Below are positions 13,849-34,355 of a stretch of 64,000 nucleotides of DNA, in pieces. Both the position numbers and the translations under genes were made by a program. This stretch comes from Sediminibacterium sp. KACHI17. GTDB taxonomy: Bacteria; Bacteroidota; Bacteroidia; Chitinophagales; Chitinophagaceae. How positions within the stretch are numbered: the first letter of the stretch is position 1; each line of letters starts with the position of its first letter. The stretch spans positions 2,356,001 to 2,420,000 of the forward strand of contig NZ_AP029612.1 in the NCBI RefSeq assembly GCF_040362915.1, read 5' to 3'. The notes beneath the pieces are model-generated. The model was not told the DNA's origin. It ran no database searches and was given only the letters and a program-made list of their open reading frames with translations.

Positions 13849-14640
13849 ATGAAAAACCTATTTATTAAATCACAAGATGGAATTGATATTCATTGTCTTG
13901 TATCAGAGCCGAAAACAACTGCACTAATATTTGTACATGGATGGCTTGGAAATGCCAATTGGTGGAATCATCAACAAGTTTATTTTGAAAAAACATATAG
14001 GGTAGTTCAAATCGATTTGCCTGGCAGAGGACAATCTGGAAATGGACGTAAGAAATGGTCTTCCACCCAATATGCCTACGATATTAAAGCTGTTGCTGAT
14101 AGTATTGAGGCAGAAAAAATTATTTTAATAGGGCATTCTATGTCTGGACCTTATGTACTAGAGGCCTCATTAATGATTCCTCAAACTAAAATGGTCGTCT
14201 TAGTTGATACCTTGAAGAATATGGATCAGCTAATGAATTATCAGCAAGCAAATAAATTGCTCTTTACCGCATATCGAAATGACTTTAGTGAAGCAATAAA
14301 ACAGCTTTTACCTAAATTTCTATACTCACCGGCTACTCCTATTTCAATTATAAAACAATTGGAATATGAATTTTTACGAAGTACGCCTGAATATGCGATA
14401 GATTCAATTGGTCCACTTTACAAAATGGCAATCACTGAAATAGCGAAACAAATTCAAATCCCAGTCAGGGCAATTAATTCTGACCTTACCCCTACGATCA
14501 AAAGTTCACTTAAGAAATACCTTAAAAATTTTGAATTTGAAGTTATTCCCGGAACAGGGCACTACCCCATGCTTGAAAAGCCAAATGAGTTTAATGTTGC
14601 ATTAGAAAAGATACTGCGAGAAGTATCTGAATCGATTTAA
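13849..14640 (+). CDS. alpha/beta hydrolase
   Basis: Cytoplasmic alpha/beta hydrolase of 263 residues. It has the oxyanion HG motif FVHGWLGNANWW, the nucleophile elbow GHSMSG (Ser near residue 100), an acidic residue in the NSDLTP segment and the catalytic His in GTGHYPMLEKP, all in order. The fold resembles haloalkane dehalogenase/esterase relatives, but the substrate is open. The gene is more AT-rich than the ribosomal-factor genes. Its TAA overlaps, tail to tail, the stop codon of the leftward membrane gene (shared TTAA), so the two units converge without a terminator. Confidence 0.9.
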   Translation: MKNLFIKSQDGIDIHCLVSEPKTTALIFVHGWLGNANWWNHQQVYFEKTYRVVQIDLPGRGQSGNGRKKWSSTQYAYDIKAVADSIEAEKIILIGHSMSGPYVLEASLMIPQTKMVVLVDTLKNMDQLMNYQQANKLLFTAYRNDFSEAIKQLLPKFLYSPATPISIIKQLEYEFLRSTPEYAIDSIGPLYKMAITEIAKQIQIPVRAINSDLTPTIKSSLKKYLKNFEFEVIPGTGHYPMLEKPNEFNVALEKILREVSESI

Positions 14641-15056
14641 TGGAACATAAGTACTGCAACAACAACAATACATACACCTGTTAATAGTGCTAATTTTCCA
14701 AAAAGTTCCATTTTTTTGAATTGCATCTCTGTATCACCAACTTTGGCTTTACTTCCAGCATGTCCTATTAGTGTAATTAATATAACCAATATCAACACTA
14801 AGGCCAATTTGATCACTAATAAAGGCATCATCAAAATACTATTCCAATATGGGTTTATCAAATACACGCCCGAGATTAACAATAAGGTTATTCCTAAATA
14901 ACCCATTTTACTTAAAGCCAATATCTGTAGACGAAAATTTACTGCATCATTGACGGTCATCTTAGAAGTTACCGAACTTAAAAAAGCGTTTGCGAAACCT
15001 GTACCTAAACCCATTGTCAATCCTATAAAATGGAGAATCATCATTACATCTTTCAT
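14637..15056 (-). CDS. small four-helix membrane protein
   Basis: About 139 residues with four predicted transmembrane helices (around MMILHFIGLTMGLGTGFANAF, MGYLGITLLLISGVYLI, MPLLVIKLALVLILVILITL and LALLTGVCIVVVAVLMF). It resembles DUF2269-like or CopD-like small membrane proteins with a His in the first helix (LHFIGL), but the family is not certain. I chose the ATG at 15056 (MKDVMMILHF); the frame extends to 15089 with hydrophilic residues. It is the last gene of the leftward unit with the decarboxylase. Function unknown. Confidence 0.7.
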   Translation of the reverse strand: MKDVMMILHFIGLTMGLGTGFANAFLSSVTSKMTVNDAVNFRLQILALSKMGYLGITLLLISGVYLINPYWNSILMMPLLVIKLALVLILVILITLIGHAGSKAKVGDTEMQFKKMELFGKLALLTGVCIVVVAVLMFH

Positions 15057-15095
15057 TCTTTTATTTTTTATTGTTATGATATAACCCAATAATAA

Positions 15096-16565
15096 TTATT
15101 TCACTATTAAGCTTTTCATCGTATCAAATATCAATGCAACATCTTTTTCGGTAGTACGCCAATTTACAAAAGCAGCACGAATACACATTTTACCTTTATA
15201 AACAGTTGGGGTCATAAAAACTTTACCGGAAGCTGTTAAACGATGGAGGAATTGTTGCAGTTTTGATGGGTCATCATTATTAGCCAAAGTAAAACAAACC
15301 GTATTCAAACGAACTGGGGCTAATAAAATAAAATCTTCTGTTGATTGAATTTTTTGGCCAAGTAATCGTGCATTTGCAATGCTTCTTAATACTATCTCCT
15401 GGTATCCCATTTTACCGTAAGCCATTAAAGTGAACCATGCTGGTAATGCTCTCATCCTTCGTGAATTTTCAGGTAAAAAATTTAAGTAAGAAAAATTTTC
15501 TAAAGGATCTCCCAAATAAGGAGCATTGGAGTTTTGAAAAGTCTCAACTTGTAGATATCTATGTTCTTCCCTTATTAGGAAAACCCCACTATCGTATGGA
15601 ACATTCAACCATTTATGACAATCAATAGTAATACTATCAGCTAATTCCCACCCCTTTAGTAAGTAAGCATATTCAGATGTACATGCTGCAAATGCGCCAA
15701 ATGCAGCGTCAATATGCCACCAAAAATTGTATTTTCTTTTTAACAAAGAAATTGCGTGCATATCGTCAAAATCAACTGTATTTACGGTGCCACCACTGCT
15801 GATTAATAATGCGGGCTCTCCATTCAATGCTATTAATTGTTCTTCGAGTAGTTGAACATCAATAGATTCTCGATCTTCTGATATAGTATCCAACATGAGT
15901 ATATTACTGCTGCCTATGCCTAACATTGAAAGGCACTTTATTGAAGATGAGTGAGGTGTGGCGGCTATTATTTTATATGATTGTGTAACACCATGGAGGG
16001 CAACATTCTGACTTAGTTGCTTTCCGAGCCATTGACGAGCCACTGCAAGACAAGTAAAATTAGACATCGTAGCTCCTGTTACAAACCCCCCCATATAGAC
16101 GTGTGGTAAATTCAATAATTCAAGTATAAGCTTGATTGTATTCAACTCAATTTGTGCAGAAACATCACCGTTACCCCTTACTGATTGTGTATTTTGGTCA
16201 TATATACTTACTAACCAATCTCCAACTAATGCAGCGGGTGTTGTTCCTCCGGTTACAAATCCTAAATATCTTGGACCAGCTGATGCTACCATCAATTTTT
16301 CAATATTATCGTTGAACATATTTAGTGTAGCTAAAGTACCTAAACCTTCTTCTGGCAATACTGATGCTTCTATAGTACTGATGTTTGTAACTGTAGACCT
16401 ATTTGGCAACTGGCTTAAAAAATCTAAAGATTGCTTTTTAGTGATATCCAATATAGAACTTAGGTTATCTCTATCTTGATTAAGTTGTGTGTACATGGTT
16501 TGATTAAATAGTGTATAAGATATTATAGATCTATAGTAAGAAAAGTGGTCACTAAAACCAATCAT
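15096..16565 (-). CDS. PLP-dependent group II amino-acid decarboxylase
   Basis: A 489-residue pyridoxal-phosphate enzyme of the aromatic-L-amino-acid/glutamate/diaminobutyrate decarboxylase group. The aldimine Lys is in TIDCHKWLNVPYDSG (Lys318); the PLP-ring Asp is in HIDAAFGAF (Asp286); the phosphate-binding region is GFVTGATMSNFT. The actual amino acid cannot be read from these motifs. The gene begins one base after the stop of the upstream STAS-like gene, so coupling is likely and the ATG at 16565 is plausible; a second Met at residue 24 could also start the protein. It belongs to the unit driven by the conserved activator site near 17.1 kb. Confidence 0.88.
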   Translation of the reverse strand: MIGFSDHFSYYRSIISYTLFNQTMYTQLNQDRDNLSSILDITKKQSLDFLSQLPNRSTVTNISTIEASVLPEEGLGTLATLNMFNDNIEKLMVASAGPRYLGFVTGGTTPAALVGDWLVSIYDQNTQSVRGNGDVSAQIELNTIKLILELLNLPHVYMGGFVTGATMSNFTCLAVARQWLGKQLSQNVALHGVTQSYKIIAATPHSSSIKCLSMLGIGSSNILMLDTISEDRESIDVQLLEEQLIALNGEPALLISSGGTVNTVDFDDMHAISLLKRKYNFWWHIDAAFGAFAACTSEYAYLLKGWELADSITIDCHKWLNVPYDSGVFLIREEHRYLQVETFQNSNAPYLGDPLENFSYLNFLPENSRRMRALPAWFTLMAYGKMGYQEIVLRSIANARLLGQKIQSTEDFILLAPVRLNTVCFTLANNDDPSKLQQFLHRLTASGKVFMTPTVYKGKMCIRAAFVNWRTTEKDVALIFDTMKSLIVK

Positions 16566-16566
16566 T

Positions 16567-17010
16567 TTATAGATGAAAGGAGTCTATCCATTCTTTAGCA
16601 ACTGTTTCATCTGTAAAAAAACGTTCTGTTTCACAGCTGTACAATTCATCATATTTTTTGATCTTACTTTCATCCTGATGTATGTGTGCTGCGGCTTTAC
16701 ATTGAATATTTCTGGTTGTATTAGTTTTTACTGATACTTCAGGAAACATATCTAAATACCCCACTCTCCACCCATAATTTAGTAGTGTACCGGGAATCAC
16801 ATCACGAAATACTTTATGCACTTCAAAATTAACCGCCTTAAATCCGTAGAGATTTACATAAATTTTGAATTCGCTATTATCAGGGATCTGGTTTAATGTT
16901 TCTATTAATGATAATTTCCATTGAATTATATCTTGTAAATCTGCATTACCACTGATCTGGGTAGAAACTAACTTTTGACTTGGATACCATTTTGAATTTA
17001 CAGTTACCAT
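16567..17010 (-). CDS. uncharacterised protein, paralogue of the gene at 19714-20161
   Basis: About 147 residues, no signal peptide or membrane segment. Unrecognised family; the order strand-helix-strand with VNLYGFKAVNFEVHKVFRD and the ending ...WIDSFHL superficially recall STAS/SpoIIAA-like proteins. It aligns end to end with the frameshifted product at 19714-20161, both sharing SxWxPxxxLxxT, FKIxVxLxxF and YRIGYLDMFPE-like segments. The start at 17010 (MVTVNSKW) is chosen because it matches the paralogue's start and leaves a 5' leader after the predicted -7 box at 17058-17065; the frame continues to 17046. First gene of the decarboxylase unit. Confidence 0.65.
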   Translation of the reverse strand: MVTVNSKWYPSQKLVSTQISGNADLQDIIQWKLSLIETLNQIPDNSEFKIYVNLYGFKAVNFEVHKVFRDVIPGTLLNYGWRVGYLDMFPEVSVKTNTTRNIQCKAAAHIHQDESKIKKYDELYSCETERFFTDETVAKEWIDSFHL

Positions 17011-17057
17011 AACAGCTGATATAGGTTTATTAATAATTAACAGCATTGAATATTTAG

Positions 17058-17124
17058 CAAAAATCTTTAGGCTTATAAAATTGATTATTATATAATTGAT
17101 ACTTAGATGTATAAGATTTTTAGG
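17058..17124 (-). promoter_or_regulatory. regulon promoter 1: activator site plus -7 box (decarboxylase unit)
   Basis: Read leftward: AATCTTATACATCTAA (17118-17103; 14 of 16 match the site consensus AATTATATACATCTAA), then GATTTTTG (17065-17058; one mismatch to TAnnTTTG). The last G is 48 nt from the C of CATC. No -33 box is evident. Confidence 0.6.
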
Positions 17125-17455: not shown

Positions 17456-18871
17456 TTATTTGGGAGATCTAATCTTTGTGATAATGATCAATAAGCCAAT
17501 AAAACAAAAAATACCTGCTCCGGCAAAAGCCATTTGGAATCCTGAGTTTAAAGCCTGTTGATTGCTACTCCCAGACTCGATATTGAATTTTGTTATTGTA
17601 ACAGCAATAACTGAGATGATTGCTAAGCCAATTGCAGAGCCAATCTGATAGCTTGTATTTACAATTCCTGAAGCAAGACCCGTTTCTTCAGGCTTAGCTC
17701 CTGACATGGATGCCATAGTTCCTGGTATATAAGCTAACGACATACCTAAAGCTCCTAGTAAGGAAGCCGGCAATACATGTACCCAATAACTTCCTTCATC
17801 AGGTACAAACGAGAAAAGGATTAAAGAACAGGTGAGAGAGATGAATCCGGCAATCAGATTCTTCTTAACTCCAAACTTGGCAATTAGTTTACTGGTAAAT
17901 CCTACCATAATTAACATTATGATGATGGTCATAGGTAATAAAGCTAGACCACTATTAAATGCATTCAATTGAAGAATTTGTTGCAGGTATAGATTCAAGA
18001 AAAACCAAAGTGGTATCCAGGAAGCTGCCATCAATGCCATCACAACATTGCCAGCAGCAAGATTCGGCGCTTTGAAGATTTGTAAAGGCAAAATGGGATC
18101 ACTTGTTTTTTTCTGAAGGCTTATAAAAATAATAGTAAGGAATACTGTAATGAGCATTAATCCAACTGTTTGCAGACTTAACCATCCAACAGATTCGGCA
18201 GTAACAATTCCATACACCAATAAAATAAGGGCAGTAGTACCCAATATAGCACTGGTCCAGTCTACCTTGCCTGAACTAACTCTGCCGGGTACTAGGTATC
18301 TTTTACTAAATATTAATACAGTAACTGCAATAGGGATATTGATAAAAAAAACCCATCTCCAATCAAGCCATTCGGTGATAACACCGCCTAAAAATACTCC
18401 GGCAGATCCACCTGCAGCGGCAGATGCACCCCAGAATCCAAAAGCTTTTCCTAATTCTTTTGGATCTGTAAAAGTACTCATGAGTAACGTCATTGCTGCG
18501 GGTGCGATCAGAGCTGATCCTAATCCTTGGAGCGCTCTTCCAGTGTTTAAGATAAATGGCGAGCTAGAAATACCTGCAATAAAAGAAGCGATCGTTAAAA
18601 TCAAAAATCCCCAGATGAATATTTTTCTTGCACCAAATAAGTCTGATAAACGACCCCCTAATAATAAAAAACCACCAAATAAAACTACGTATGCATTAAA
18701 AATCCATTGAAGACCATTTTGTGAGTAACCTAAATCATTTTTTATTGCTGGTAATGCGACACCAATAATAGATGTATCCATGATGACCATGAATTGCGAC
18801 GTACATAATAATAATAGCGCCAGCCATCTATTTTTATTTTTTACGCTATGTAGATTCATTACATTTTCCAT
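17456..18871 (-). CDS. MFS exporter, DHA2 (14-helix, EmrB/QacA type)
   Basis: A 471-residue drug:H+ antiporter-2 family exporter. Conserved motif A is LGGRLSDLFGARKIF; the N-terminal motif D1 region reads FMVIMDTSIIGVALPAI, typical of EmrB/QacA/LfrA proteins; about 14 hydrophobic helices can be counted. No EmrA-like adaptor lies next to it. The ATG at 18871 would leave only about 7 nt of leader after the predicted -7 box, so the in-frame ATG at 18859 is an alternative start. The unit is flanked by the candidate activator promoter upstream and a hairpin downstream. The exported compound is unknown. Confidence 0.9.
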   Translation of the reverse strand: MENVMNLHSVKNKNRWLALLLLCTSQFMVIMDTSIIGVALPAIKNDLGYSQNGLQWIFNAYVVLFGGFLLLGGRLSDLFGARKIFIWGFLILTIASFIAGISSSPFILNTGRALQGLGSALIAPAAMTLLMSTFTDPKELGKAFGFWGASAAAGGSAGVFLGGVITEWLDWRWVFFINIPIAVTVLIFSKRYLVPGRVSSGKVDWTSAILGTTALILLVYGIVTAESVGWLSLQTVGLMLITVFLTIIFISLQKKTSDPILPLQIFKAPNLAAGNVVMALMAASWIPLWFFLNLYLQQILQLNAFNSGLALLPMTIIIMLIMVGFTSKLIAKFGVKKNLIAGFISLTCSLILFSFVPDEGSYWVHVLPASLLGALGMSLAYIPGTMASMSGAKPEETGLASGIVNTSYQIGSAIGLAIISVIAVTITKFNIESGSSNQQALNSGFQMAFAGAGIFCFIGLLIIITKIRSPK

Positions 18872-18884: not shown

Positions 18885-18949
18885 CGAAATTATATTCACG
18901 GTACACCTTAGTTGTTATACCTGTATTGTTTAGTTGTATATAATTTTAG
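18885..18949 (-). promoter_or_regulatory. regulon promoter 2: activator site plus -7 box (MFS exporter)
   Basis: Leftward: AATTATATACAACTAA (18945-18930; 15 of 16) then TAATTTCG (18892-18885; one mismatch to TAnnTTTG), last G 48 nt from the C that ends the CAAC/CATC element. Confidence 0.6.
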
Positions 18950-19582: not shown

Positions 19583-19625
19583 AATAAACTCCTTTTTGTT
19601 TTACTTATAATTTGATCTTGCATCA

Positions 19626-19687
19626 CAAAATTCTAAAGACCAGATCTGAGTGCTTTATATTATAGCAAATTAGAGTTATAAAATTCT
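19626..19687 (-). promoter_or_regulatory. regulon promoter 3: activator site plus -7 box (barrel gene)
   Basis: Leftward: AATTTTATAACTCTAA (19685-19670; 13 of 16), then GAATTTTG (19633-19626; one mismatch to TAnnTTTG), spacing 47. The weakest of the sites by sequence but with conserved geometry. Confidence 0.45.
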
Positions 19688-20164: not shown

Positions 20165-21502
20165 TTATAAATTAAGCTTACCTAATGTTTTTTTTATTTC
20201 AGTTTCTAAAATCTTTATGCTGAATAAGTAAGACTTCTCTTCAAGTTTGGATTTTGTCAACGCTAATTCAGCGTCTGAAAGCTCGATCCTATTGCTAAGA
20301 CCTGCCTGGTATCTTTCATAAATAATTTGATAAGCTTCTTGAGCTGCAGTAATACTCTTCTGTTGCGTTTGCCATTGTTTTATTTCATCAGATAATCGAA
20401 GAGTCAGTGCCGATAATTCTGCTTTCGCCTTATCTGTAAGCTCAGATTTTTCTAATTCCCTTTTTTTTGAGAGAAGTTTAGCACTTGATGTTTGATGTTG
20501 TATTCGTTTTCCAGCATATATGGGCACCTGAAGTTTTAAGCCGATTAATGATGTCCTAGGAAGTGTATAAGCTCTTAGCTTAAAATTATCTGCTTGAGAT
20601 TGTACCTGATATTGAGCAAAGGACATTAACATAGGTTGATACATCGACTTATATCGCTTTAAATCGGTTTGACTACTTTGAATAGCTAAAGATGCTAGTT
20701 TGATATCAGCCCTTTCGTTCAGTAAATTTTCTCGCGCCTCTTTATTTTTTATATAAGTCACTATGTCACTATCAATTGCTAGATCGCCTTCTAATTGAAT
20801 TGGCATCTCAAGATCAAAAGCACATAACCTTTTTATCTGTAAGAGATTAATATGAATTTGATTGGCCAAAGCAGATAATCCATTCTCTAATCTTTGAATA
20901 TCAATCATATAATTAAGCGTATCTGTTTTTAATGCTTTACCTTCTAAATAGAGATTTTTTGCATCAAATAAGGCTTTCTTATTACGTTCTAGACTTTGTA
21001 ATAAAACAGATTCCTGATGTTTTAAAAAAATCGTATTGTAAAATAAACGAGACAGCTGAAAAGCAAGCTCCTCGCAGAAGAGCTTGCTTTCTTGAACTTT
21101 TTTGTCTGTTTCAATTTGGGTGGATGCTATCTCTGCTTTAGCAACAGGATTAGTGATAGCATAACTAGCATTAATGGACGCATCCAATGCAAGACTTCCG
21201 TTATACTTTACTGGGTTTGCTTTTGGTAATTGATTTTCATCACGTAAATAAATTACAGGTCTTTCTAAAAAATATGTATAACTGCTAGTAAAAAAAATTT
21301 GCGGCAGTAACATGCTTTTAACTTCAGCCGTAGTCGATTCGGTTAATGTTTTCTCTAGGAGTTTTACCTGTATCGTTTTATTTCCGGAAGCAGCGGCTTG
21401 AAATATAGCGTCAAGCGTTAAGGATCTTGTTTGGGCTTTCAAATGGAAAGCAATCGATAATCCGAATACAACGTAAATAAGTCTCTGTATAATCTGTTTC
21501 AT
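20165..21502 (-). CDS. TolC-family outer-membrane efflux protein
   Basis: The 445-residue outer-membrane channel of a tripartite pump. Signal peptide MKQIIQRLIYVVFGLSIAFHLKAQ; two repeated helical OEP domains rich in coiled-coil heptads, including the typical ERYQAGLSNRIELSDAELAL segment near the C-terminus. It is the third gene of the MFP-RND-TolC operon, 3 nt after the permease. It would conduct substrates from the RND permease across the outer membrane. Confidence 0.92.
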   Translation of the reverse strand: MKQIIQRLIYVVFGLSIAFHLKAQTRSLTLDAIFQAAASGNKTIQVKLLEKTLTESTTAEVKSMLLPQIFFTSSYTYFLERPVIYLRDENQLPKANPVKYNGSLALDASINASYAITNPVAKAEIASTQIETDKKVQESKLFCEELAFQLSRLFYNTIFLKHQESVLLQSLERNKKALFDAKNLYLEGKALKTDTLNYMIDIQRLENGLSALANQIHINLLQIKRLCAFDLEMPIQLEGDLAIDSDIVTYIKNKEARENLLNERADIKLASLAIQSSQTDLKRYKSMYQPMLMSFAQYQVQSQADNFKLRAYTLPRTSLIGLKLQVPIYAGKRIQHQTSSAKLLSKKRELEKSELTDKAKAELSALTLRLSDEIKQWQTQQKSITAAQEAYQIIYERYQAGLSNRIELSDAELALTKSKLEEKSYLFSIKILETEIKKTLGKLNL

Positions 21503-21505
21503 ACG

Positions 21506-24500
21506 TTATTTGTTTGTTGAATGATTTTCCTCAGGTTGAACAAGTTCAATAACCTCTTTTTTTCTTTTACCTGATGAAAGAAATGAATAAACGGCAGGGA
21601 TGATGAATAATGTAAGAACTCCGGCAAACACCAATCCACCTGCAATTACAATACCCAATGATTGTCTGCTGTTATATGTTAGAGCAATTGGGATTGCTCC
21701 AAAAATCATAGCTAATGATGTCATCAAAATGGGTCGGAATCTTTGCTCAGCAGCTTGTATAGCAGCTTCTATTTTAGTAAGTCCACTTTCTTTTAAATGA
21801 TTCGCAAACTCGACAATCAGGATTCCGTTTTTTGTGATGAGACCTACTAATGTGATTATCCCGATCTGACTAAACACATTCAAACTTTGGTTGAACCAAT
21901 ACAGACTGATCAATGCACCCGTTACAGCCATTGGCACCGTCAACATAATAATTAAAGGATCTCTCAAACTTTCAAATTGGGCCGCCAGGATCATATAGAT
22001 GAGCAGTAAAGCCAGTATTAATGTGAAGTTGATATTACCCTGACTTTCCCTAAAGTCTCTTGATTGTCCTGCTAGTGATGACTTAAATGTCTCTCCGAGC
22101 ACTTGAATCTTTATTTTTTCCATTTCTTCAATACCCTCTGCTAAACTCACACCCGGAGCGAGACCTGCTGAAACGGTAGCTGATGTGTATTGATCATAAC
22201 GATAGATGGCTGCAGGGCTGATTCCTTCATCTATTGTAACAAGATTATCTAAAGAAATCATGGAGCCATTACCAGATCTTACATAGAGTGATCGCAAATC
22301 ACTAATATCATTTCTACTACTTCTTTCTACTTGTCCAATGACTTCATACTGTCTGTCATTTTGTAGAAAATACCCATAACGTTGACCAGAGAATGAGAGT
22401 TGAAGTGTACGAGCTACCTCTTGAATGGATACCCCCATCAATGCAGCTTTGTTTCTGTCGATACTGATTTTAAGTTCCGGTTTATTCATTTTAAGATCTG
22501 AATCAACAAACATTAGCTTTTTACTTTGACGAGCAGCAGCCAAAAACTTCGGTAGGGCTGCGTTAATTTTTTCCAAGTCTGAAGCTTGAAGAACAAATTG
22601 TACAGGCATCCCTCCACCATATCTAGTTCCAATAGTTGGAGGGAGATACGGGAAGAGCAAAATATTTCTAAACTTGCCAGATGCAATTCCGTATTGCTGA
22701 TACAGTTGTTGAATGGATGTCTTTCTGTGTTTGGGGTCTTTTAAATAAATAGATTGAACTGCAAAACTTGTAGGTGCGGGTGCCGGAATGAATGAAATCG
22801 CAACCATTGAATAGGTTTGATACAACCCATCAGTTGAGTCATTGACATATCGGCCCACATCAATCATATTTTGTTTCATTTTTTCAAATGATACACCTTC
22901 AGGAGCGATAGCGATTAAACTCATATTGCTTCTATCCTCAGTAGGCGCTAATTCAGAGGGTAATTTTTTCCCAATCAAAAAAATTAATACTGAGGTTAGG
23001 ATAAGAAATATCCAAGCCAGCCAACGAACGCGCATGAATTGTCTTAAAACTCGTCCATATCCATTATTAAATCTTATAAAAAAGGGTTCTGTTTTTCTAT
23101 ATAGCCAATTAGGCTTATCAGTTTTTTTCAAAAGGTAAGCGCTGAGCATTGGCGAAAGGGTCAAAGCAACAAATGCTGATACCAATACGGAGCCAGCAAC
23201 CACGATAGCAAATTCCTTAAATAGCTGACCGCTAATTCCACCCATAAAAATAATAGGCATGAATACAGCTGCTAGGGTAATAGTAGTTGATATCACGGCA
23301 AAATAGATTTCTTTGCTCCCTGCAAATGCAGCCTGGACTGGATTCATGCCTTCTTCTACTTTCTTGTAAATATTTTCAAGAACAACAATTGCATCATCAA
23401 CAACAAGTCCGATAGCCAATACCAATCCTAATAACGTCAATACGTTAATAGAAAATCCAGCTATATACATAATGAAAAAGGCAGAAAGTATAGAAACAGG
23501 AATTGCTAATACGGGTATTATAGTAGATCGCCAGTCTCTCAGGAAGAGAAAGATGATGATAACAACAAGGCCGAAAGCAATAAATAATGTTTCTTCAACT
23601 TCTTTTATTGATTCACGAACTGGTCTGGTAAAATCAAATCCAACAATGAGCCTGTATTCACTTGATATTTCTTTTTTTAATTGTTCTAGTCTTTTATAAA
23701 ATTCATCTACAACTTCGATCGCATTTGCACCTCTTTGAATTTGAATAGCAACACCTACACCTACCACGTTCTTTCCACCTGTTTCGTTGATGATTGCATT
23801 TCTTTCATTCATTTCACCTAACTCAGCATAGCCAATATCTTTTAGTTTGATACTATATTCCGTAGTTTTATGAATGATCATTTCATTGAAATCATTGGGG
23901 TTGGTTAGTCGCCCGAGCGTACGTACACTTAACTCATTGCTATTACCTTCTACACGACCAGATGGCAAATCAATATTCTCTTTTTGAAGTGCAATGCGTA
24001 TATCTTCAGCAGTTAATCCAAAGGCAGCCATTTTAACCGGATCAAAGCGAAGTCTCATTGCATACTTGTGTTCTCCAACGATAGCTACTCTTTGGATGCC
24101 TGGAATTGACTGCATTCTGTCTTTAATAGTCGTTGAAGCGAGGTGGCTAACTTCTTTGATATCTTTTGTATCACTCTCTACTTCTAAAAATGCAACTAGG
24201 TTATCTGGTGAACTTGCTTTTTCAACAATCGGCGGATCAACATCGGCTGGCAATTGATTTTTTGATTTCGCTACCTTATCTCGTACATCATTCAAGGCAT
24301 CTTCCAAATTAATATCTCTATTAAATTCAATAGAAATTATACTTGCTTGCTCTCTTGATTCACTGGATATGGTTCTTACACCGGCCGCTTCAGCTATAGA
24401 CTCTTCGAGAGGCTTGGTAATTTTAGATGCGATTACATCTGGGCTTGCCCCCGGATAAAATGTTACAACTGATATAACTGGGGGTTCGGTCATCGGGAAC

Positions 24501-24607: not shown

Positions 24608-24617
24608 ATGGATAGTA

Positions 24618-25673
24618 TTATTGTTTGATTGAAGCTATTTGAACAGGCATTCCATTAGAAACACGCAGTAGATTAGAGATCAAAATGCTATCCCCCTGCT
24701 TAATACCAGATTTGATCAAGACATCATTATCTGTTCTGTCAATGATTTCTACAGGTTGTAGCTTGGCAGTTCCTTTTGAGAACAGAAATACACTATAGCC
24801 TTTTTCACTAGGGACAACTGCTTCTGTAGGTACAGAAAATCCGATTCTATCTGTTTTGTTTGTAGCAAAGAAAACTTTAGCTGACATGCCAGGTCTCAAG
24901 TGTCCGTTTGTGTTTGAGATCAGAGCATGAACCAAAATACTTCTGGTGTCGTTGCTCAACGCAACATCGGTTGATACAACTGTTGCTTTTAGTTTATCAT
25001 TTCTATCAACTGTAGTAAATGAAACGATCATTCCCGGTTTTAAGAGAGTCACATATTTTTCAGATACATGAAACTGAAGTTTTAAAATGCGTTGTTCTTG
25101 GATGGTAGTTAAAGAATTACCTGGAGTAACATAGGACCCTGTAAAAACCTTACTGATTCCCACAATGCCATCAAATGGAGCACGAATAAATGTTTTGCTT
25201 AATTCATCTTGTAGTAATTGTTTATGAGCCAGCAAAGCATTTTTCTTTGCAACTGCTATATCATGTTCTTCTCTGCGAACTGACTCAGTTTTTAAAAGTG
25301 AAGCAAGTCTTTGTTCATTTAAACTAGCTAAGTCGAGTTCTGCCTGAAGTTGCTGAATTTTTGCTTTTATATCGCCATCTTCAAGTTTATAAAGAACAGT
25401 ACCCATTTTAACGGTACTTCCATCTTTAAAATTGACCGAATTAATTTTTTTTGATAACTCACTGTTAATTTCAACAAACCTGTTTGCAATGATACTACCG
25501 GCTACTATCTCATTTTGCGAATAATTATCAGACTTTGCAATCGTAATATCAACCGGGAGCCCAGAGTTGTCACTAGATGCTGTAGTATTGTTTTTTTCTT
25601 TTTCTGAACAAGAATAAAAAAAAGCAACTGTAAATAATAGTAGACAGGTGCGTTTGAATAAATAAGTTTTCAT
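24618..25673 (-). CDS. RND membrane fusion protein (lipoprotein)
   Basis: Periplasmic adaptor of 351 residues. A lipobox ends FFYSC (Cys22), so it is a lipid-anchored AcrA-like protein. It has a lipoyl/barrel-sandwich hybrid domain (SVNFKDGSTVKMGTVLYKLEDGD ... FIRAPFDGIVGIS), a short alpha-hairpin (QLQAELDLASLNEQRLASLL) and a C-terminal beta-barrel and membrane-proximal domain. It heads the operon MFP-RND-TolC. The promoter region upstream contains an activator site and a perfect inverted repeat that covers the -7 box. Confidence 0.93.
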   Translation of the reverse strand: MKTYLFKRTCLLLFTVAFFYSCSEKEKNNTTASSDNSGLPVDITIAKSDNYSQNEIVAGSIIANRFVEINSELSKKINSVNFKDGSTVKMGTVLYKLEDGDIKAKIQQLQAELDLASLNEQRLASLLKTESVRREEHDIAVAKKNALLAHKQLLQDELSKTFIRAPFDGIVGISKVFTGSYVTPGNSLTTIQEQRILKLQFHVSEKYVTLLKPGMIVSFTTVDRNDKLKATVVSTDVALSNDTRSILVHALISNTNGHLRPGMSAKVFFATNKTDRIGFSVPTEAVVPSEKGYSVFLFSKGTAKLQPVEIIDRTDNDVLIKSGIKQGDSILISNLLRVSNGMPVQIASIKQ

Positions 25674-25679
25674 ATCAGA

Positions 25680-25713
25680 TTTTTACTTTTAAATAATATT
25701 TCAAAAGTAAAAA
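25680..25713. promoter_or_regulatory. inverted repeat covering the RND operon -7 box
   Basis: Perfect 11-bp arms TTTTTACTTTT (25680-25690) and AAAAGTAAAAA (25703-25713), 12-nt spacer, 7 nt upstream of the adaptor start codon. One arm contains the -7 box TACTTTTG, so a repressor bound here would block it. No specific binder is proposed. Confidence 0.4.
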
Positions 25714-25762
25714 CCTATGAAACCCTTGGTATTGCACTATTCCAGCTTAGATGTATATTATT
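25702..25762 (-). promoter_or_regulatory. regulon promoter 4: activator site plus -7 box (RND operon)
   Basis: Leftward: AATAATATACATCTAA (25762-25747; 15 of 16) then TACTTTTG (25709-25702; exact TAnnTTTG), last G 48 nt from the C of CATC. Confidence 0.7.
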
Positions 25763-27559: not shown

Positions 27560-27591
27560 TTTTAAAATTTTTAATTTATCAAAAGCATGCA

Positions 27592-27652
27592 CAAAATTAT
27601 CCTTGGGTAAAATTTTTAATTTGCATATTAACTTGCTTGTTGTATATAATTC
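27592..27652 (-). promoter_or_regulatory. regulon promoter 5: activator site plus -7 box (HMA-like/lipoprotein unit)
   Basis: Leftward: AATTATATACAACAAG (27651-27636; 13 of 16), then TAATTTTG (27599-27592; exact TAnnTTTG), spacing 47. The site begins inside the T-run side of the copA terminator. Confidence 0.6.
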
Positions 27653-27705: not shown

Positions 27706-29946
27706 TTATATCGAAGAGAGTTTTAGTCTTAAGCTATTACTAACAACACTTACACTGCTCAGTGCCATCGCAGCTCCTGCAATCATTGGGTTTAAAAGAA
27801 ATCCATTTACCGCAAATAAGACACCTGCTGCAATGGGGATACCAATAATATTATAAATAAATGCCCAGAATAAATTCTGTTTGATCGTTGCTACAGTTTT
27901 CTTTGAAAGTTGAATGGCTTTTGGGATACTAGTCAGATCTGATGTGATCAATGTCATTTTTGCAACATCCATCGCAATATCACTACCCTTACCCATTGCG
28001 ATACTAACATCAGCAGTAGCCAATGCATGACTATCATTGATACCATCGCCAACCATTGCCACTATTTTTCCTTGTTTTTGCAGTTGCTCAATGAATGCTG
28101 CCTTTTCAGCAGGCATTACTTCTGCCTTGTATGTTGTAAGACCTACCTGATCAGCAATTGCTCTTGCAGTTTGCTGATTGTCTCCTGTTAACATATATAC
28201 TTCAATATCCATTTTATGTAAACGTTCGATAGCGGCGGCCGAACTTTCTTTGATTTTATCTGTGATGGCTAATACAATTCTCGCAACACTATTTTTTGAA
28301 AAAACAATCACTGTTTTAGCCTGTTTTTGAAGCTCATCTATTCTTTTTTGTAAAACCATATCTATGGTAGTTTTATTTTCTTTCATCATTGATGGACTTC
28401 CGATAGCATATTGCTGATCATTGTAATCCGCGATCACTCCTTTGCCGGTTACACTCTCGATCCTGTGTAAGTGTACGGGCTTGATAGCGCTGTTTTCAAA
28501 ATGTTGAACAACGGCTTCTGCTAAAGGGTGTTCTGACTGAAGTTCGATGGATAATAAAACAGATTGTAGTTCACTCAAATCGTGTTCATCTTTAAAAATC
28601 ACATCACTTACCTCAGGTTTTCCTTCCGTAATGGTTCCTGTTTTATCTAATACTACAGCGTTGATACTATGTGCTAATTCCAGACTTTCAGCATCTTTAA
28701 TAAGTATATTGTTTTCGGCACCTTTTCCGATACCTACCATGATAGCAGTAGGTGTGGCCAAACCCAAAGCACAAGGACAAGCAATGACCAAAACGGTAAC
28801 CGCATTCATTAAGGCATATGTGAATGCATTTTCATTACCCCAAATCATCCAACTGATAAATGTAAGTATAGAGATTCCGATCACAACAGGAACAAAAATT
28901 CCTGCGATCTTATCTACCAGTTTTTGAACAGGGGCTTTACTTCCCTGCGCCTGTTCCACCATCTTGATGATCTGTGCCAAAAATGTTTCTGATCCAATCT
29001 TTTCAGCCCTGAATCGAAAACTACCTTTCTGATTAATGGTTCCTGCAAATACGTTTTTCCCTACAATTTTTTCTACCGGAACAGGCTCACCCGTGATCAT
29101 GCTTTCATCTACATAAGAACTTCCATTTGTGATGGTGCCATCTACAGGAATTTTCTCACCCGGCTTTACCAATAAGATATTGCCCTTTTGAACGGAAGCA
29201 ATGGCTATCTCTTTTAATTGATCCTCTTCAGTCACCAATGTCACATACTGTGGCTGTAAACCAATTAATTTTTTGATCGCAGATGAAGTATTTGATTTGG
29301 CTTTTTCCTCCAATAATTTCCCCAATGAAATAAACACAATAATTACGGCAGCAGCTTCAAAATAAACATGCGGGTGTGTGCCACGCTCATGCCAGAAATC
29401 AGCGAAGAGTGTATTAAAAGCACTGAAAAGCCAAGCAATACCGGTACTAAGCGCAACCAGGGTATCCATATTTGCTTTACTATGCTTGGCTTGCTTCCAT
29501 GCATTAATAAAAAAGTTTTTACCGAAATAAAAAACTACAGGAGTTGATAGTGCCATCATGATATAGTTTCCCCCTGTTAGGTCCATGAAGAACATGCCTA
29601 GAATAACTATCGGCAGTGATAATATGGAAGACCAGATCGTTCTTTTTTTGATTGACTCATAATGCTGAATCCTTGCTGCTTCTTTTATCTCGTTTTTATT
29701 TTCTTCTGTTATTACGATGTCATATCCAATAGATCGAACTACTGTCTGAAATTTTTCCGGATTGGTTATTTCAGGATCATATTCGATCCATGCGTCTTGA
29801 TTGGCAAAGTTTACTCCTGCATCCAATACACCTTCAGAAGACCTGAGCATTGATTCAACACTCACTGCACAAGCTGCACAAGTCATCTCCAAAATAGGAA
29901 ATGTTTTTCGTACAGATTTGATATTTGGAGAATCTTCTTGTTTCAT
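27706..29946 (-). CDS. copA: Cu(I)-exporting P1B-type ATPase
   Basis: A 746-residue copper-transporting P-type ATPase. One N-terminal HMA domain carries MTCAAC (Cys23 and Cys26). The transmembrane metal site CPC is in [15 protein letters not shown] (about residue 392), the phosphorylated Asp in [11 protein letters not shown], the TGEP loop in [11 protein letters not shown], the HP dipeptide in [10 protein letters not shown] and the hinge [10 protein letters not shown]; all essential parts are intact. CPC type and context assign it as CopA (P1B-1). It is monocistronic, between the divergent AraC/copper genes and the HMA-like unit, under a regulon-type promoter. Confidence 0.96.
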
Positions 29947-29963: not shown

Positions 29964-30025
29964 CAAAGCTAAATACAGCTATTACTGATGTCTTTATATA
30001 ATGAGCTTAATGATGTATAAAATTT
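29964..30025 (-). promoter_or_regulatory. regulon promoter 6: activator site plus -7 box (copA)
   Basis: Leftward: AATTTTATACATCATT (30024-30009; 12 of 16, with the core TATACATC exact), then TAGCTTTG (29971-29964; exact TAnnTTTG), last G 48 nt from the C of CATC. Confidence 0.6.
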
Positions 30026-30029: not shown

Positions 30030-30593
30030 CTACCTATTTGTTTTAATTCCACTTGCATGTATGGTTTTAAAATCGCTAGGAGTCATTCCTGTATATTGTT
30101 TAAACTGTCTTGAAATATGCGCAGTACTACTAAATCCCAGTTTAAATGATATTTCTGTTAATGTATATTCCGTATACAGAAGAAACTCTTTTGTCTTTTC
30201 TATTCGGTACTCAATAAGATACTTTTCAATAGTAGAGCCTTCTTCAGAGGAAAATAAATGACTAATAGTATCGTAGCTTTTGCCTATCTGTTTTGATAAA
30301 TATCCGGAAAAAAGAAAACCTTCCGGAAAATCAAATGCTCCATTGTACACATCATGGATTATCTTTTTTATTATTCCGGCGATCTTCTCTTTTCTATTTT
30401 CAAGAATGCTGAATCCTAAAGGCCTTATTTGATCATTCAATAGATTGAGATCTAAGTAACGGTTGTCAGACGAAAATTTCAATTCCCCAAGCATAACTTC
30501 AGCAGGTAGTAAGTTGATTTTTTTGAGTTCCGTAGTGATGATTTCGATACAACGTTGACAAACCATTCCTTTTATAAATACTGTCTGTTGCAT
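30030..30593 (-). CDS. HMA-AraC fusion transcriptional regulator (first copy)
   Basis: A 187-residue protein joining two modules. Residues 1-60 form an HMA-like domain with the metal-ligand motif MVCQRC (Cys12, Cys15). Residues about 85-180 form a complete AraC/XylS DNA-binding domain with two helix-turn-helix motifs, the second being ISFKLGFSSTAHISRQFKQYTGMTPSDFK. So metal binding and DNA binding are joined in one short protein. Its close paralogue is divergently encoded at 30727. It faces copA and a regulon-type site lies in its own promoter, suggesting autoregulation. The Cu(I) ligand is inferred from the CxxC and the context. Confidence 0.85.
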   Translation of the reverse strand: MQQTVFIKGMVCQRCIEIITTELKKINLLPAEVMLGELKFSSDNRYLDLNLLNDQIRPLGFSILENRKEKIAGIIKKIIHDVYNGAFDFPEGFLFSGYLSKQIGKSYDTISHLFSSEEGSTIEKYLIEYRIEKTKEFLLYTEYTLTEISFKLGFSSTAHISRQFKQYTGMTPSDFKTIHASGIKTNR

Positions 30594-30610: not shown

Positions 30611-30675
30611 CAAAGTACGCAGCTAAGTATTGGATGATTGTTATAGGATTTTAAGAAAGATGTATATAATCCATC
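30611..30675 (-). promoter_or_regulatory. regulon promoter 7: activator site plus -7 box (first HMA-AraC gene)
   Basis: Leftward: GATTATATACATCTTT (30671-30656; 13 of 16), then TACTTTG (30617-30611), with last G 48 nt from the C of CATC. The -7 box lacks one base of the TAnn spacer. Confidence 0.5.
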
Positions 30676-30726: not shown

Positions 30727-31302
30727 ATGTCTGAACAATTACACATAAAAAATATGGTTTGCGATCGTTGTATTATGGTCGTAAAGCAGTTGTTTATGGA
30801 TCTTCAGATTGATTTTAACCAAATACAATTGGGTCAGGTAGAGTTGAAGAATACACCGGATCGGCAACAATTGGAAACAATCAGATCTCTTTTACAAGAT
30901 CACGGGTTTGAATTACTCGATGATAAAAAATCTAAAATCGTTGAAAAGATCAAGACCACAATTGTTTCATTGATTCACGGAAAAGATGCAGAAGAGTTGA
31001 ACTTAAAATTATCTGCCATACTGGAAGAGAAACTACAGACCGATTATCATTATCTAAGTACACTTTTCTCTTCGGTAGAAGGGGTTACCATCGAACGATA
31101 TGCAATTCTCCAGCGTATTGAGAAAGTCAAGGAGTTATTGATGTATGATGAGAAAAGCCTCAGCGAAATTGCCTATGAAATGGGCTATAGCAGTGTTCAG
31201 CATTTGTCTCAACAGTTTAAAAAAGTAACCGGATTAACGCCTTCACACTTCAAGCAGTTAAAGGAAAATAAGCGTAAACCCCTGGATAAGATCAAAGACT
31301 GA
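30727..31302 (+). CDS. HMA-AraC fusion transcriptional regulator (second copy)
   Basis: A 191-residue paralogue of the protein at 30030: N-terminal HMA-like domain with NMVCDRC (Cys12, Cys15) and a C-terminal AraC DNA-binding domain (LSEIAYEMGYSSVQHLSQQFKKVTGLTPSHFK). The linker helix (KIVEKIKTTIVSLIHGK) parallels the other copy. A TATATTTG -7 box (30712-30719) ends only 7 nt before the ATG, so the transcript would be nearly leaderless. It is followed by the CopZ-like unit at 31427. The fusion suggests a sensor that reads Cu(I) directly; whether it activates or represses is not visible, but AraC family and site position favour activation. Confidence 0.85.
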   Translation: MSEQLHIKNMVCDRCIMVVKQLFMDLQIDFNQIQLGQVELKNTPDRQQLETIRSLLQDHGFELLDDKKSKIVEKIKTTIVSLIHGKDAEELNLKLSAILEEKLQTDYHYLSTLFSSVEGVTIERYAILQRIEKVKELLMYDEKSLSEIAYEMGYSSVQHLSQQFKKVTGLTPSHFKQLKENKRKPLDKIKD

Positions 31303-31316: not shown

Positions 31317-31379
31317 AAAATTATATACATCTACTTGAGGATTCTATAACAAGTCGGTCACATAGTGATTCTAATTTTA
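31317..31379 (+). promoter_or_regulatory. regulon promoter 8: activator site plus -7 box (CopZ-like/MCO unit)
   Basis: Rightward: AATTATATACATCTAC (31319-31334; 15 of 16) then TAATTTTA (31372-31379; one mismatch to TAnnTTTG), last base 48 nt from the C of CATC. This is the only site on the plus strand, and it precedes the only rightward unit in the set. Confidence 0.7.
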
Positions 31380-31426: not shown

Positions 31427-31642
31427 ATGGAAACACTGAAATTCAAAACAACCATTAAATGTATGGGTTGTGTATCAAAAGCTACTCCTTTTCTGAATGA
31501 AGTTGTAGGATCTGAAAATTGGAAAGTGGATGTGAATAATCCTGATAAAGTATTAGAAGTTACTGCCAATGGAAATACAGCTGCAAGTGATGTTGTGAAA
31601 GCGGTACAGGAAGCAGGATTTAAAGCAGAACCCATTCAATAA
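31427..31642 (+). CDS. CopZ-like HMA copper chaperone
   Basis: A 71-residue single HMA domain with the copper-binding motif KCMGCVSKA (two Cys) and the ferredoxin-like pattern ENWKVDVNNPDKVLEVTANG. Its role would be cytoplasmic Cu(I) trafficking to CopA. It heads a rightward unit followed by the DUF3347 protein (42 nt) and the multicopper oxidase. The Cys-less paralogue at 27326 lies upstream of the lipoprotein. The gene name copZ is not applied because the bacterial family is broad. Confidence 0.88.
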   Translation: METLKFKTTIKCMGCVSKATPFLNEVVGSENWKVDVNNPDKVLEVTANGNTAASDVVKAVQEAGFKAEPIQ

Positions 31643-31684
31643 TGGGTTCTGTTATTACGCTTTGTAAACACTAAAATCAATTAT

Positions 31685-32167
31685 ATGAAACAGCTACTGA
31701 TCATCATCATGTTACTCATTTCGAAAATGGGTATCGGACAAACCGCTTCTTTACAAGAACTTTTACGTCAATACCTGGATCTAAAAAACCAATTAGTTGA
31801 GAGCAATGCAGCCAATGCACAAAAATCGGCTACTGTATTGAATGGGAAGATCGAGAATCTCTCTGCACAAGCTCTTTCTGAAAAAGAAGCCAAAGCTTTC
31901 AGCTCTCTCAAGGATGTATTAAATAAGCATGCAAAAGAGCTGTCTTCACAATCTGATCTGGCAAAACAACGGGTGGCTTTTGCAGCATTATCACAACCCA
32001 TGATCGATTTGTTTAAGATCGTATCTGTAAAAGAATCCTCACTTTATGTGGACTATTGTCCAATGAAAAAAGCCTATTGGTTAAGTACAGAAAAGACGAT
32101 CCGTAATCCTTACTATGGAAATGCCATGCTTTCATGTGGTAGTATCAAAGAAACAATCAAAGAATAA
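31685..32167 (+). CDS. DUF3347 secreted copper-associated protein
   Basis: A 160-residue exported protein (signal MKQLLIIIMLLISKMGIGQ). The C-terminal signature YVDYCPMKKAYWLSTEKTIRNPYYGNAMLSCGS belongs to the DUF3347 family, typically fused to or next to CusB-like copper efflux proteins; the two Cys and two Met spaced as CPM...MLSC could hold copper. A four-helix bundle fills the N-terminal part. It is located between the HMA chaperone and the multicopper oxidase, consistent with a periplasmic copper role. The stop codon lies 4 nt before the oxidase start codon. Confidence 0.85.
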   Translation: MKQLLIIIMLLISKMGIGQTASLQELLRQYLDLKNQLVESNAANAQKSATVLNGKIENLSAQALSEKEAKAFSSLKDVLNKHAKELSSQSDLAKQRVAFAALSQPMIDLFKIVSVKESSLYVDYCPMKKAYWLSTEKTIRNPYYGNAMLSCGSIKETIKE

Positions 32168-32171
32168 AGAA

Positions 32172-34355
32172 ATGCGTTTATTGCTTTTAGTATATATCCT
32201 TCTTTCCGTATCTCTTAATGGCATTACGCAACATAATGCACATGCTGTTTCAGCAACACGTCAACCTTTTATGGTGCGACAAGGGAACAAGATTGTTTAT
32301 CATTTGTATGTAACGGATACCGTTGTGAATTATACCGGAAAGAAATCTAACGCGGTTGCTATCAATGGCTCTATTCCAGCGCCCACACTTTATTTCACTG
32401 AAGGCGATACTGCTGAGATACAGGTGCACAATCTGATGCACATGGAAACTTCTATTCATTGGCATGGCCTTATACTTCCGAATGAGCAGGATGGCGTACC
32501 CTATCTTACAACAGCTCCCATTCATAAACTTAGTACGCATGTGTTTCGGTTTCCGATTGTTCAGCATGGCACGTATTGGTATCATTCACATACCATGCTT
32601 CAGGAGCAAAGCGGTATGTATGGGGCTATTGTGATTCAGCCGAAAAAGAAAATTACAGAAGCCGAGGAAGTAGTACTATTAAGTGATTGGATCAATGAAA
32701 ATCCCCATCAGGTAGAAAGGTCCTTGCATTTTGCCACAGACTGGTATGCCATTAAAAAAGGAGCTACACAGAATTATATACAAGCCATTCGCGAGAAAAA
32801 ATTCGGAACCAAAGTAATCAATGAGTGGAAAAGAATGATGGCCATGGATGTGAGTGACGTTTATTATGATGCATTGTTTACAAATGGGAAAGTGGATGAC
32901 ATGCATGCCCGATACAAGCCGGGAGATAAAGTAAGATTGCGAATCATCAATGGAAGTTCTTCCACTTATTTCTGGATACGTTTTGCGGGCGGCAAGATGA
33001 GTGTTGTTGCAAATGATGGTGCAGAAGTTGTTCCGGTAGAAGTAGACCGACTGATTATCGGAGTATCAGAAACCTATGATGTAGTTGTTACTATTCCAGA
33101 TGCAGGCAGTTATGAATTATTGTCTACTGCAGAAGACAGAACACGCAGTACTTCATTATGGCTTGGGGAAGGAGAGAAAAAATATGCGCCTGTACTACCT
33201 CGCTTAAAATACTTTGAGGGAATGAAGATGATGAATGGAATGATGAATATGGATGGTACCATGAATGATATGGGGATGAAAATGAGTTTGCAGCAAATGG
33301 ACATGAATACTGTCATGTACCCGGAGATCGTAGACAGTAATGAAAACATTGTAACACTGAATTATGCGATGCTTCGCGCGCCGGCTAAAACTACACTACC
33401 TGATGGACCGGTTAGAGAGTTGAAATTTGAACTTACCGGTAATATGAATCGCTATGTGTGGACACTTGATAATAAAACCATTTCCGAGTCGGATAAGATA
33501 TTGATCAAGCAGGGAGAGAATATACGTATCATACTCACCAATAATTCTATGATGCGTCACCCCATGCACTTACATGGACACTTCTTTCGTACGTTGAATG
33601 GGCAAGGTGAATATGCTCCATTAAAAACAGTTTTGGACATTATGCCTATGGAGACTGATACCATTGAGTTTCATGCATCAGAGAAATATGGGGATTGGTA
33701 TTTTCATTGTCATATCTTATATCACATGATGAGTGGAATGGGGAGAATATTTTCTTATGAGAATACGCCTGCTAATCCACAAATTCCTGATCCAATAAAA
33801 GCTTTACGAAAAGTTTATCGAGATGACAGACGTTTCTATTTAGGGGCACAAATAGGAGTAGAGAGTAATGGTAGTGATGGAGAGATCATGTTGGCCAATA
33901 CCAGATGGATGTTTCAGAATGAATGGCGATTAGGGCTTACGCCGGAAAAGGGCTATGAGAATGAGTTTCATATTGGCAGATTGATCGGGAGAAACCAATG
34001 GTTCATGCCTTATATTGGTTTTGACTGGCGTTATCGGAAACATACGGAAATGGAAAAGAATATTTTTGGTCAAGTGAATACCAAAGATCAACGTGGCGTT
34101 ATTTGCTTTGGATTTCAGTATACACTTCCCATGTTATTAAGATTTGATACCCGCGTTGATATGAAAGGAAATGTTCGTATGCAAATCGGTAGAGAAGATA
34201 TTCCTGTCAGTAGCAGACTACGAATGAATCTTATGTGGAATACAGACAAAGAGTATACGACAGGATTTCGGTACATATTGTCTAAGTATGTTTCAGTCTC
34301 ATCGCATTATGATAGTGATATGGGTTGGGGTGCAGGTATTACCATTACTTATTGA
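32172..34355 (+). CDS. multicopper oxidase fused to a CopB-like outer-membrane barrel
   Basis: A 727-residue exported protein. The signal peptide starts at the ATG at 32172 (MRLLLLVYILLSVSLNGITQ). The first 535 residues are a three-domain multicopper oxidase of the CopA/PcoA group with all copper sites: HWHG, WYHSH, HPMHLHGH and WYFHCHILYHMMSGM. A Met-rich segment (MKMMNGMMNMDGTMNDMGMKM, about residues 353-375) matches those of copper-oxidising members. The last 190 residues are a barrel-like module (WRLGLTPEKGYENEFHIG, FMPYIGFDWRYRKH) resembling CopB/PcoB, normally a separate protein. So oxidase and outer-membrane parts are one chain. It overlaps the TraB-like gene by 7 nt. Confidence 0.88.
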   Translation: MRLLLLVYILLSVSLNGITQHNAHAVSATRQPFMVRQGNKIVYHLYVTDTVVNYTGKKSNAVAINGSIPAPTLYFTEGDTAEIQVHNLMHMETSIHWHGLILPNEQDGVPYLTTAPIHKLSTHVFRFPIVQHGTYWYHSHTMLQEQSGMYGAIVIQPKKKITEAEEVVLLSDWINENPHQVERSLHFATDWYAIKKGATQNYIQAIREKKFGTKVINEWKRMMAMDVSDVYYDALFTNGKVDDMHARYKPGDKVRLRIINGSSSTYFWIRFAGGKMSVVANDGAEVVPVEVDRLIIGVSETYDVVVTIPDAGSYELLSTAEDRTRSTSLWLGEGEKKYAPVLPRLKYFEGMKMMNGMMNMDGTMNDMGMKMSLQQMDMNTVMYPEIVDSNENIVTLNYAMLRAPAKTTLPDGPVRELKFELTGNMNRYVWTLDNKTISESDKILIKQGENIRIILTNNSMMRHPMHLHGHFFRTLNGQGEYAPLKTVLDIMPMETDTIEFHASEKYGDWYFHCHILYHMMSGMGRIFSYENTPANPQIPDPIKALRKVYRDDRRFYLGAQIGVESNGSDGEIMLANTRWMFQNEWRLGLTPEKGYENEFHIGRLIGRNQWFMPYIGFDWRYRKHTEMEKNIFGQVNTKDQRGVICFGFQYTLPMLLRFDTRVDMKGNVRMQIGREDIPVSSRLRMNLMWNTDKEYTTGFRYILSKYVSVSSHYDSDMGWGAGITITY

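Follow-up and report, generated by a model that had tools for sequence, protein, structure and literature searches.

The described copper regulators CueR, CsoR, CopY and CusRS are tied to copA- and copZ-type genes, and to our knowledge none of them belongs to the AraC family. Here we describe a candidate regulon that is likewise tied to such genes and whose regulators carry an AraC-type domain. It lies in a stretch of 64,000 nucleotides of Sediminibacterium sp. KACHI17 (contig NZ_AP029612.1, positions 2,356,001 to 2,420,000 of the forward strand); "the window" below means this whole stretch. Eight transcription units of the window, clustered within 20 kb, share one promoter arrangement, a 21-bp direct repeat followed by a TAnnTTTG-like -7 box. 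Two nearby genes encode proteins, P0001 and P0002, with an HMA-like and an AraC-type domain, and we refer to such proteins as HMA-AraC regulators.

For DNA binding the closest described systems are AraC at araI1-I2 of Escherichia coli and other class II activators of the AraC/XylS family. The N-terminal domain of AraC is sugar-binding, and AraC touches RNA polymerase at araI2. Here, in contrast, the N-terminus is HMA-like with an MVCxRC motif, the protein has 191 aa, and the promoter is of the Bacteroidota -7 type. MarA, SoxS and Rob bind one site as monomers, whereas here we find two half-sites and a putative sensor domain.

The siderophore-dependent copper response of uropathogenic E. coli is reportedly regulated by YbtA. 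As far as the available part of the source goes, that response links an AraC-type regulator to copper, as here, but is siderophore-dependent, unlike here, and no HMA fusion is mentioned for it (PMC8725597). Another regulator outside the usual sensor families is CorE of Myxococcus xanthus, which the available part of its description presents as a copper-dependent sigma factor, not an AraC protein (PMC3107203). Our literature search found no description of an HMA-AraC copper regulator, but it covered the best-ranked papers and few subscription journals, so this absence is not proof. In general, copper sensing in Bacteroidota appears to be little described in that literature. Judged from sequence, the system appears to belong to the AraC-type activators, combined with a sensor domain of a new kind and an operator that had not been defined before. 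The 21-bp repeat is probably the site at which an HMA-AraC protein (P0002, perhaps also P0001), predicted to bind copper, would recruit RNA polymerase as a class II activator.

A direct repeat in eight promoters

An earlier note on this DNA had claimed that eight units each carry a site resembling the 16-mer AATTATATACATCTAA, oriented towards the gene and at a fixed distance from a -7 box. All eight are present where the note had placed them, strand included, and each faces its gene. Seven match the 16-mer at 13-15 of 16 positions and the one at 30009 at 12 of 16 (counted by eye), in line with the reported 12-15. The spacing from the last C of CATC to the box is 48, 48, 47, 48, 47, 48, 48 and 48 nt, exactly as claimed. 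From the 16-mer to the start codon we measured 56-92 nt, slightly less than the reported 60-110 nt; for the unit at 27636 the distance is 76 nt, counted from the ATG at 27559. The sites, each with its -7 box, are as follows.

17058..17118, minus strand: operator and -7 box of the unit 16567/15096/14637 (SpoIIAA-like protein, decarboxylase dependent on pyridoxal phosphate (PLP), small protein); alignment and profile scans
18885..18945, minus strand: operator and -7 box (TAATTTCG) of the MFS exporter 17456-18871; alignment and profile scans
19625..19685, minus strand: operator and -7 box (spacing one shorter) of the 185-aa protein 19025-19582, called a barrel in the earlier note
25702..25762, minus strand: operator and -7 box (TACTTTTG) of the RND unit 24618-25673, 21506-24607, 20165-21502 and 19714-20007
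27591..27651, minus strand: operator and -7 box (TAATTTTG, spacing one shorter) of the unit of a Cys-less CopZ-like protein and a 493-aa protein; the weakest site
29964..30024, minus strand: operator and -7 box (TAGCTTTG) of copA 27706-29946; alignment and profile scans
30611..30671, minus strand: operator and -7 box of the first HMA-AraC regulator, 30030-30593; alignment and profile scans
31319..31379, plus strand: operator (half-sites 31319-31331 and 31340-31352) and -7 box TAATTTTA (31372-31379) of the copZ/DUF3347/multicopper oxidase unit

However, the 16-mer is the distal half of the operator only, and a second copy of its pattern lies 21 bp downstream. In the alignment of the eight promoters positions 1-15 read AATnnTATACATCTA, a second conserved block at 23-31 reads ATnnTATAA, and the -7 box follows at 54-61 (53-60 in two of the eight). 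The operator consists of two half-sites with the pattern AATnnTATA(A/C)(A/C)A, exactly 21 bp apart in all eight promoters, and 26-27 nt lead from the end of the proximal half-site to the last base of the box. When the operator profile is compared with itself at shifts of 11-47, there is one good match, at 21 bp (score 1.0; next -2.7), and the site is therefore a direct repeat with its halves two helical turns apart. An inverted-repeat reading fits worse (best score -7.6 in the 58 relatives' sites described below) and was rejected. What had been taken for a single 16-mer peculiar to one genome is thus a 21-bp direct repeat found across the phylum.

The published Bacteroides promoter has TAnnTTTG at -7 and TTTG near -33, and the -33 motif is, in the available part of the same source, likewise not found in Flavobacterium johnsoniae (PMC7366714). 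The -7 box, a feature of Bacteroidota primary-sigma promoters, is present both at the window sites and at the sites of relatives. A -33 TTTG box is absent from the promoters described here, and TATAACA of the proximal half-site occupies its position. The earlier note had also seen no evident -33 box, which is correct, although it had overlooked the second half-site at that place. None is visible because this half-site sits 21 bp downstream, over the -33 region.

A pair of directly repeated half-sites separated by about two turns, with the proximal one on the upstream promoter element, is how the sites of AraC-type class II activators are laid out, and we find this arrangement here. Since the proximal half-site lies over the -33 region, a bound activator would touch polymerase. 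The basis for reading a fixed spacing as polymerase contact is what is seen at class II promoters of the AraC family. Further, this suggests that the AraC mode of activation may operate at the unusual -7 promoter of the phylum, with the proximal half-site replacing the -33 box. The same overlap could let a bound protein block polymerase, in which case the regulator would be a repressor that copper releases. We consider this very unlikely: no -33 box remains for unaided transcription, and the near-constant spacing between operator and box seems to fit contact with polymerase better than blocking.

Specificity and recurrence of the operator

The earlier note held that such spacing is not expected by chance. 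For the whole architecture this is borne out, as it stands far above background, but the 16-mer alone is only modestly significant: with at most 3 mismatches there are 7 matches against 2.0 expected, and 1 of 100 shuffles is as high. The 10-mer core TATACATCTA was rejected as evidence, as it is at background level in the genome, with 10 matches where the reversed pattern has 17. A profile that combines the 34-nt operator and the -7 box gives the eight sites 34.9-41.1, whereas the runner-up in the window scores 12.9, and with the operator only and one site left out at a time each scores 13.3-25.3. A profile made from relatives only (27 sites from 14 relatives) gives 23.3-36.6 for the eight sites, 11.8 for the next place in the window and 21.0 for the best place in 100 random 64-kb sequences. 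The same 27 sites, used as a sequence-only covariance model (R2), yield exactly eight window matches at E<=10, all of them the sites. A profile of phylum sites (58 loci, see below) also puts the eight first (13.0-35.2, next 8.0).

In the whole genome (3.14 Mb), searched with a model that includes the window sites, the eight are the top 8 of 14 matches among the 150 of 1309 first-look candidates that were scored. The remaining six have E values of 0.02-4, and none covers the full model. Five of these six off-cluster matches were considered as sites and rejected (three intragenic, one intergenic, one at a gene start). With the relatives-only model (150 of 972 candidates scored) the window sites rank 1-6, 10 and 13 of 13; five partial off-cluster matches fall between them, and two window sites are among the weak matches. 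Given the number of candidates scored, weak sites elsewhere in the genome may have been missed, and among those scored no full-length operator with box lies outside the cluster. The second P-type ATPase of the genome (34% identical, at 1649288) has no nearby match among the matches listed.

In related genomes the spaced site and box recur, mostly beside regulator, copA or CxxC genes. Profile matches were found in 18 of 20 stretches around the regulators of relatives, many of them before copA-, copZ- or regulator-length genes. Among 117 genomes of the family, 87 have a P0002 homologue and 84 a site match; the match is found in 76 of the 87 regulator-positive and 8 of the 30 regulator-negative genomes (p 1.2e-9). 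At the stricter E<=1e-4 the figures are 44/87 and 0/30, and without the 15 genomes that supplied training sites they are 61/72 and 8/30. However, one point weighs against taking this co-occurrence as a link to the regulator, namely that it is confounded by copA: a close CopA (at least 47% identity) occurs in 49 genomes, 47 of them regulator-positive.

A P0002 homologue is found in 139 of 296 sampled Bacteroidota genomes (E<=1e-25). For the phylum we used 80 named loci chosen by regulator alignment alone, with no overlap with the training loci apparent by eye. They were scored for the operator only, with a profile from 35 window and family sites, counting scores >10 from -60 to +300 of the regulator stop codon. 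The operator lies just after the HMA-AraC gene in 58 of the 80 loci, where the rate over 1.56 million positions predicts 2.4. The -7 box played no part in selecting these 58 loci; a box with at least 5 of 6 TAnnTTTG letters is present at offset 54 in 50 of them, and at any other offset of 37-80 in at most 4. The consensus of the 58 sites is AATnTTATAAATC..AATTnTATAACA..AnCTTTGT, and the direct repeat at 21 bp is clear also here (score 3.86, next -4.79).

With the full model there are 95 matches in 65 of the 80 loci. The genes that follow them are 47 P-type ATPases (46 with CPC), 12 small CxxC proteins, 10 proteins with an N-terminal CxxC, including HMA-AraC regulators, and 22 others, with no gene in 4 cases; 69 of the 95 matches thus precede P-type ATPases or CxxC proteins. 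Flavobacterium, Chryseobacterium, Hoylesella, Bacteroides, Dysgonomonas, Pontibacter and Ignavibacteria are among the 80 loci, and each has a match. At L089, L100, L106, L149 (about 5575) and L086 (1286) a membrane permease of 418-419 aa follows the site, and we take it to resemble the SO_0444 Cu/Zn efflux family.

Could the shared element be a general promoter feature, belonging to an alternative sigma factor or acting as an upstream element, and not the operator of a regulator? Its near-constant spacing to the TAnnTTTG box and its position over the -33 region would fit. We regard this as extremely improbable, as the element is a 21-bp direct repeat that covaries with a recognition-helix residue (next section), adjoins the regulator gene in the 58 of 80 loci, and has no full-length match elsewhere in 3.14 Mb among the 150 candidates scored per search.

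The HMA-AraC regulators

The two regulators of the window are the following.

30727..31302, plus strand: HMA-AraC regulator P0002, KNMVCDRC type, predicted main sensor-activator
30030..30593, minus strand: second HMA-AraC regulator P0001, KGMVCQRC type, 35% identical to P0002

Both have a C-terminal AraC-type domain with two helix-turn-helix motifs (HTH_18, E 2.5e-19 for P0001 and 3.9e-17 for P0002), and the model of P0002 matches the folds of AraC, MarA, Rns, ToxT and others. Their Pfam and NCBIfam matches are AraC-type only, with no MerR (CueR), CsoR or CopY family domain in either protein, and Pfam PF00403 (HMA) matches neither at E<=0.001. The N-terminal domain contains MVCxRC, invariant in 30 of 30 regulators, with the CxxC metal loop at the first loop. 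It is modelled (predicted local distance difference test, pLDDT, 87.4) as beta-alpha-beta-beta-alpha-beta, a ferredoxin-like HMA fold, and its structure matches are CopZ, GolB and Atx1. Further, a profile of the 30 members matches metal-binding domains of Cu-ATPases in the PDB by sequence. We infer that Cu(I) may be bound through the two cysteines of MVCxRC.

Across the 58 loci, the variable columns of regulator and operator that covary most strongly are the His/Tyr of SSVxHLSxQF, which is H159 of P0002 and part of the second recognition helix, and position 27 of the operator. Of 79 regulators, taken from the 58 loci and from 21 of 29 family loci, all 46 with His are paired with T27, and 23 of the 33 with Tyr are paired with C27. 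On a tree made without that column there are seven inferred His-to-Tyr changes, and position 27 changes on three of those branches; the p-value of this coincidence is 0.004 (9 position-27 changes on 156 branches), for a pair that was chosen after the scan. For operator positions 5, 8 and 29 the coincidence with His-to-Tyr changes is not significant. The window obeys the His/T27 rule, with T27 in all eight sites and His in both regulators.

The proposal of the earlier note, that the regulon is read by HMA-AraC proteins, thus gains support from geometry, specificity in the own genome among the candidates scored, adjacency across the phylum, co-occurrence (with the reservation about copA) and residue-base covariation. 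It is adjacency and covariation that point to an HMA-AraC protein as the probable reader of the site. That this is a dedicated HMA-AraC regulon is, in outline, well supported; activation and copper sensing are what we infer.

The two regulators differ in their own promoters. P0001 has a site in its promoter, and P0002 has none of its own among the window matches. When 99 HMA-AraC genes from 101 sources were classified by script, the site-bearing ones were 1 of 84 of the KNM type, 3 of 4 of the KGM type and 0 of 11 others, in a sample that is biased to P0002 relatives and incomplete (a site-bearing second regulator in L078 was missed). The simplest reading is a constitutive primary sensor, P0002, and an induced second one, P0001. 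A different division of labour would be that the operator is read mainly by P0001, or by P0001/P0002 heterodimers, and that P0002 only primes the system. Both proteins have the HMA-like and AraC domains and the His at the covarying position, and the site lies before P0001 as it does before most of the KGM type caught. Still, we think it unlikely: the covariation was measured on P0002-type proteins, and the KGM type makes up only 4 of the 99 genes, a weak argument as the loci were chosen by P0002 similarity and second regulators were missed.

With P0002 as the main activator, copper would be taken up by the two cysteines of its N-terminal MVCxRC domain. Activation would then depend on copper, with one protein on each half-site and the proximal one, over the -33 region, touching polymerase; transcription would start a few bases past the -7 box. 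P0002, which is site-less, is presumably made constitutively, and P0001, under the site, would add feedback or feed-forward. The RND pump and the MFS exporter were presumably recruited as members of the defence.

More generally, we find it somewhat likely that HMA-AraC proteins form a class of copper sensor that has gone unrecognised and act as the main copper switch in Bacteroidota, with Cu(I) perhaps coming straight from CopZ, the 21-bp repeat replacing the -33 box, a His/Tyr code for base 27, and RND and MFS genes captured in some lineages. If true, many Bacteroidota would switch on copper defence in this way. The 139 of 296 sampled genomes would have a candidate sensor, an operator resolved to the single base and a swappable residue-base pair; therefore the claim is testable in any tractable member of the phylum.

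The units under the operator

The remaining genes of the cluster are listed here.

27706..29946, minus strand: CopA, Cu-type P-type ATPase (TIGR01511, 617 bits, cut-off 397)
31427..31642, plus strand: CopZ-like chaperone (best NCBIfam match is the CopZ family with 29.3 bits, below the cut-off of 85)
31685..32167, plus strand: DUF3347 protein (domain match)
32115..34355, plus strand: multicopper oxidase, closest to the copper-resistance type (domain match)
27326-27559, minus strand: Cys-less CopZ-like protein, ATG at 27559, downstream of the site 27591..27651
25834-27315, minus strand: 493-aa protein, lipoprotein by a signal read by eye, downstream of the same site
20165..25673, minus strand: RND tripartite pump of adaptor, permease and outer-membrane factor (RND model matches)
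17456..18871, minus strand: DHA2-family MFS exporter (family match)
14637..17046, minus strand: SpoIIAA-like 159-aa protein, PLP-dependent decarboxylase and 150-aa protein

The earlier note had also counted units without an obvious role in copper handling as members. This stands for the RND and MFS units, which recur elsewhere, but not for the amino-acid decarboxylase unit. The RND permease matches multidrug RND models best, reaching 1037 bits with a model whose cut-off is 1250; with CusA/CzcA it reaches far less, 360 bits. Its close orthologues in L044 (84.5%) and L083 (83.6% over 268 aa) have a site before the adaptor gene, and in L166 (82%) the phylum-wide profile detects a weak site (12.9) about 32 nt upstream of that gene. 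The L044 site, which was in the training set of the first model, scores only 7.8 with the phylum-wide profile. In the RND loci of 29 other genomes model R1 gives no match at E<=1; when 6 of the 29 were rescored with the phylum-wide profile, L167 (64%) and four paralogues (51-54%) had at most 5.6. About 13 kb past the window end (G000:C1:2432967-2436026) there is another permease of the multidrug RND type, 48% identical, with no site near it among the matches listed.

Relatives of the MFS exporter follow a site in L044 (69%) and L114 (67% over 132 aa); a search of 296 phylum genomes at E<=1e-150 gave the protein in this genome only. L114 (5555-10138) is a locus of a metagenome-assembled genome with four regulon-type sites in 5 kb, the last of them before the MFS exporter. 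The RND and MFS units are thus recurrent but uncommon members of the regulon. Control of a multidrug-type RND pump and an MFS exporter through a copper-linked site would tie metal exposure to drug efflux.

The decarboxylase is present in 14 of the other 194 family genomes, and in the loci of 11 relatives, taken with 1.5-kb flanks, a site was found in 0 of 11. It was therefore rejected as a conserved member; as far as seen, the unit is a local addition, a member only here among the loci examined.

The protein at 27326-27559 is a CopZ paralogue, 35% identical to the CopZ at 31427, that has lost its CxxC and kept the regulon site. In L039 and L076 relatives of it and of the lipoprotein are neighbours, and the L039 pair has a site about 300 nt upstream. 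A PDB search at E<=0.1 gave nothing related in sequence to the 493-aa protein, and Pfam at E<=0.001 gives nothing for it or for the 185-aa, 123-aa, 159-aa and 150-aa proteins. The DUF3347 and multicopper oxidase frames overlap by 53 nt as listed, and several oxidase loci of relatives also have DUF3347. The genes 16567-17046 and 19714-20007 (minus strand), which belong to two separate regulon units, are paralogues (42% identical over 91 aa), and the product of 19714-20007 has a weak, below-cut-off match to the Pfam SpoIIAA-like family.

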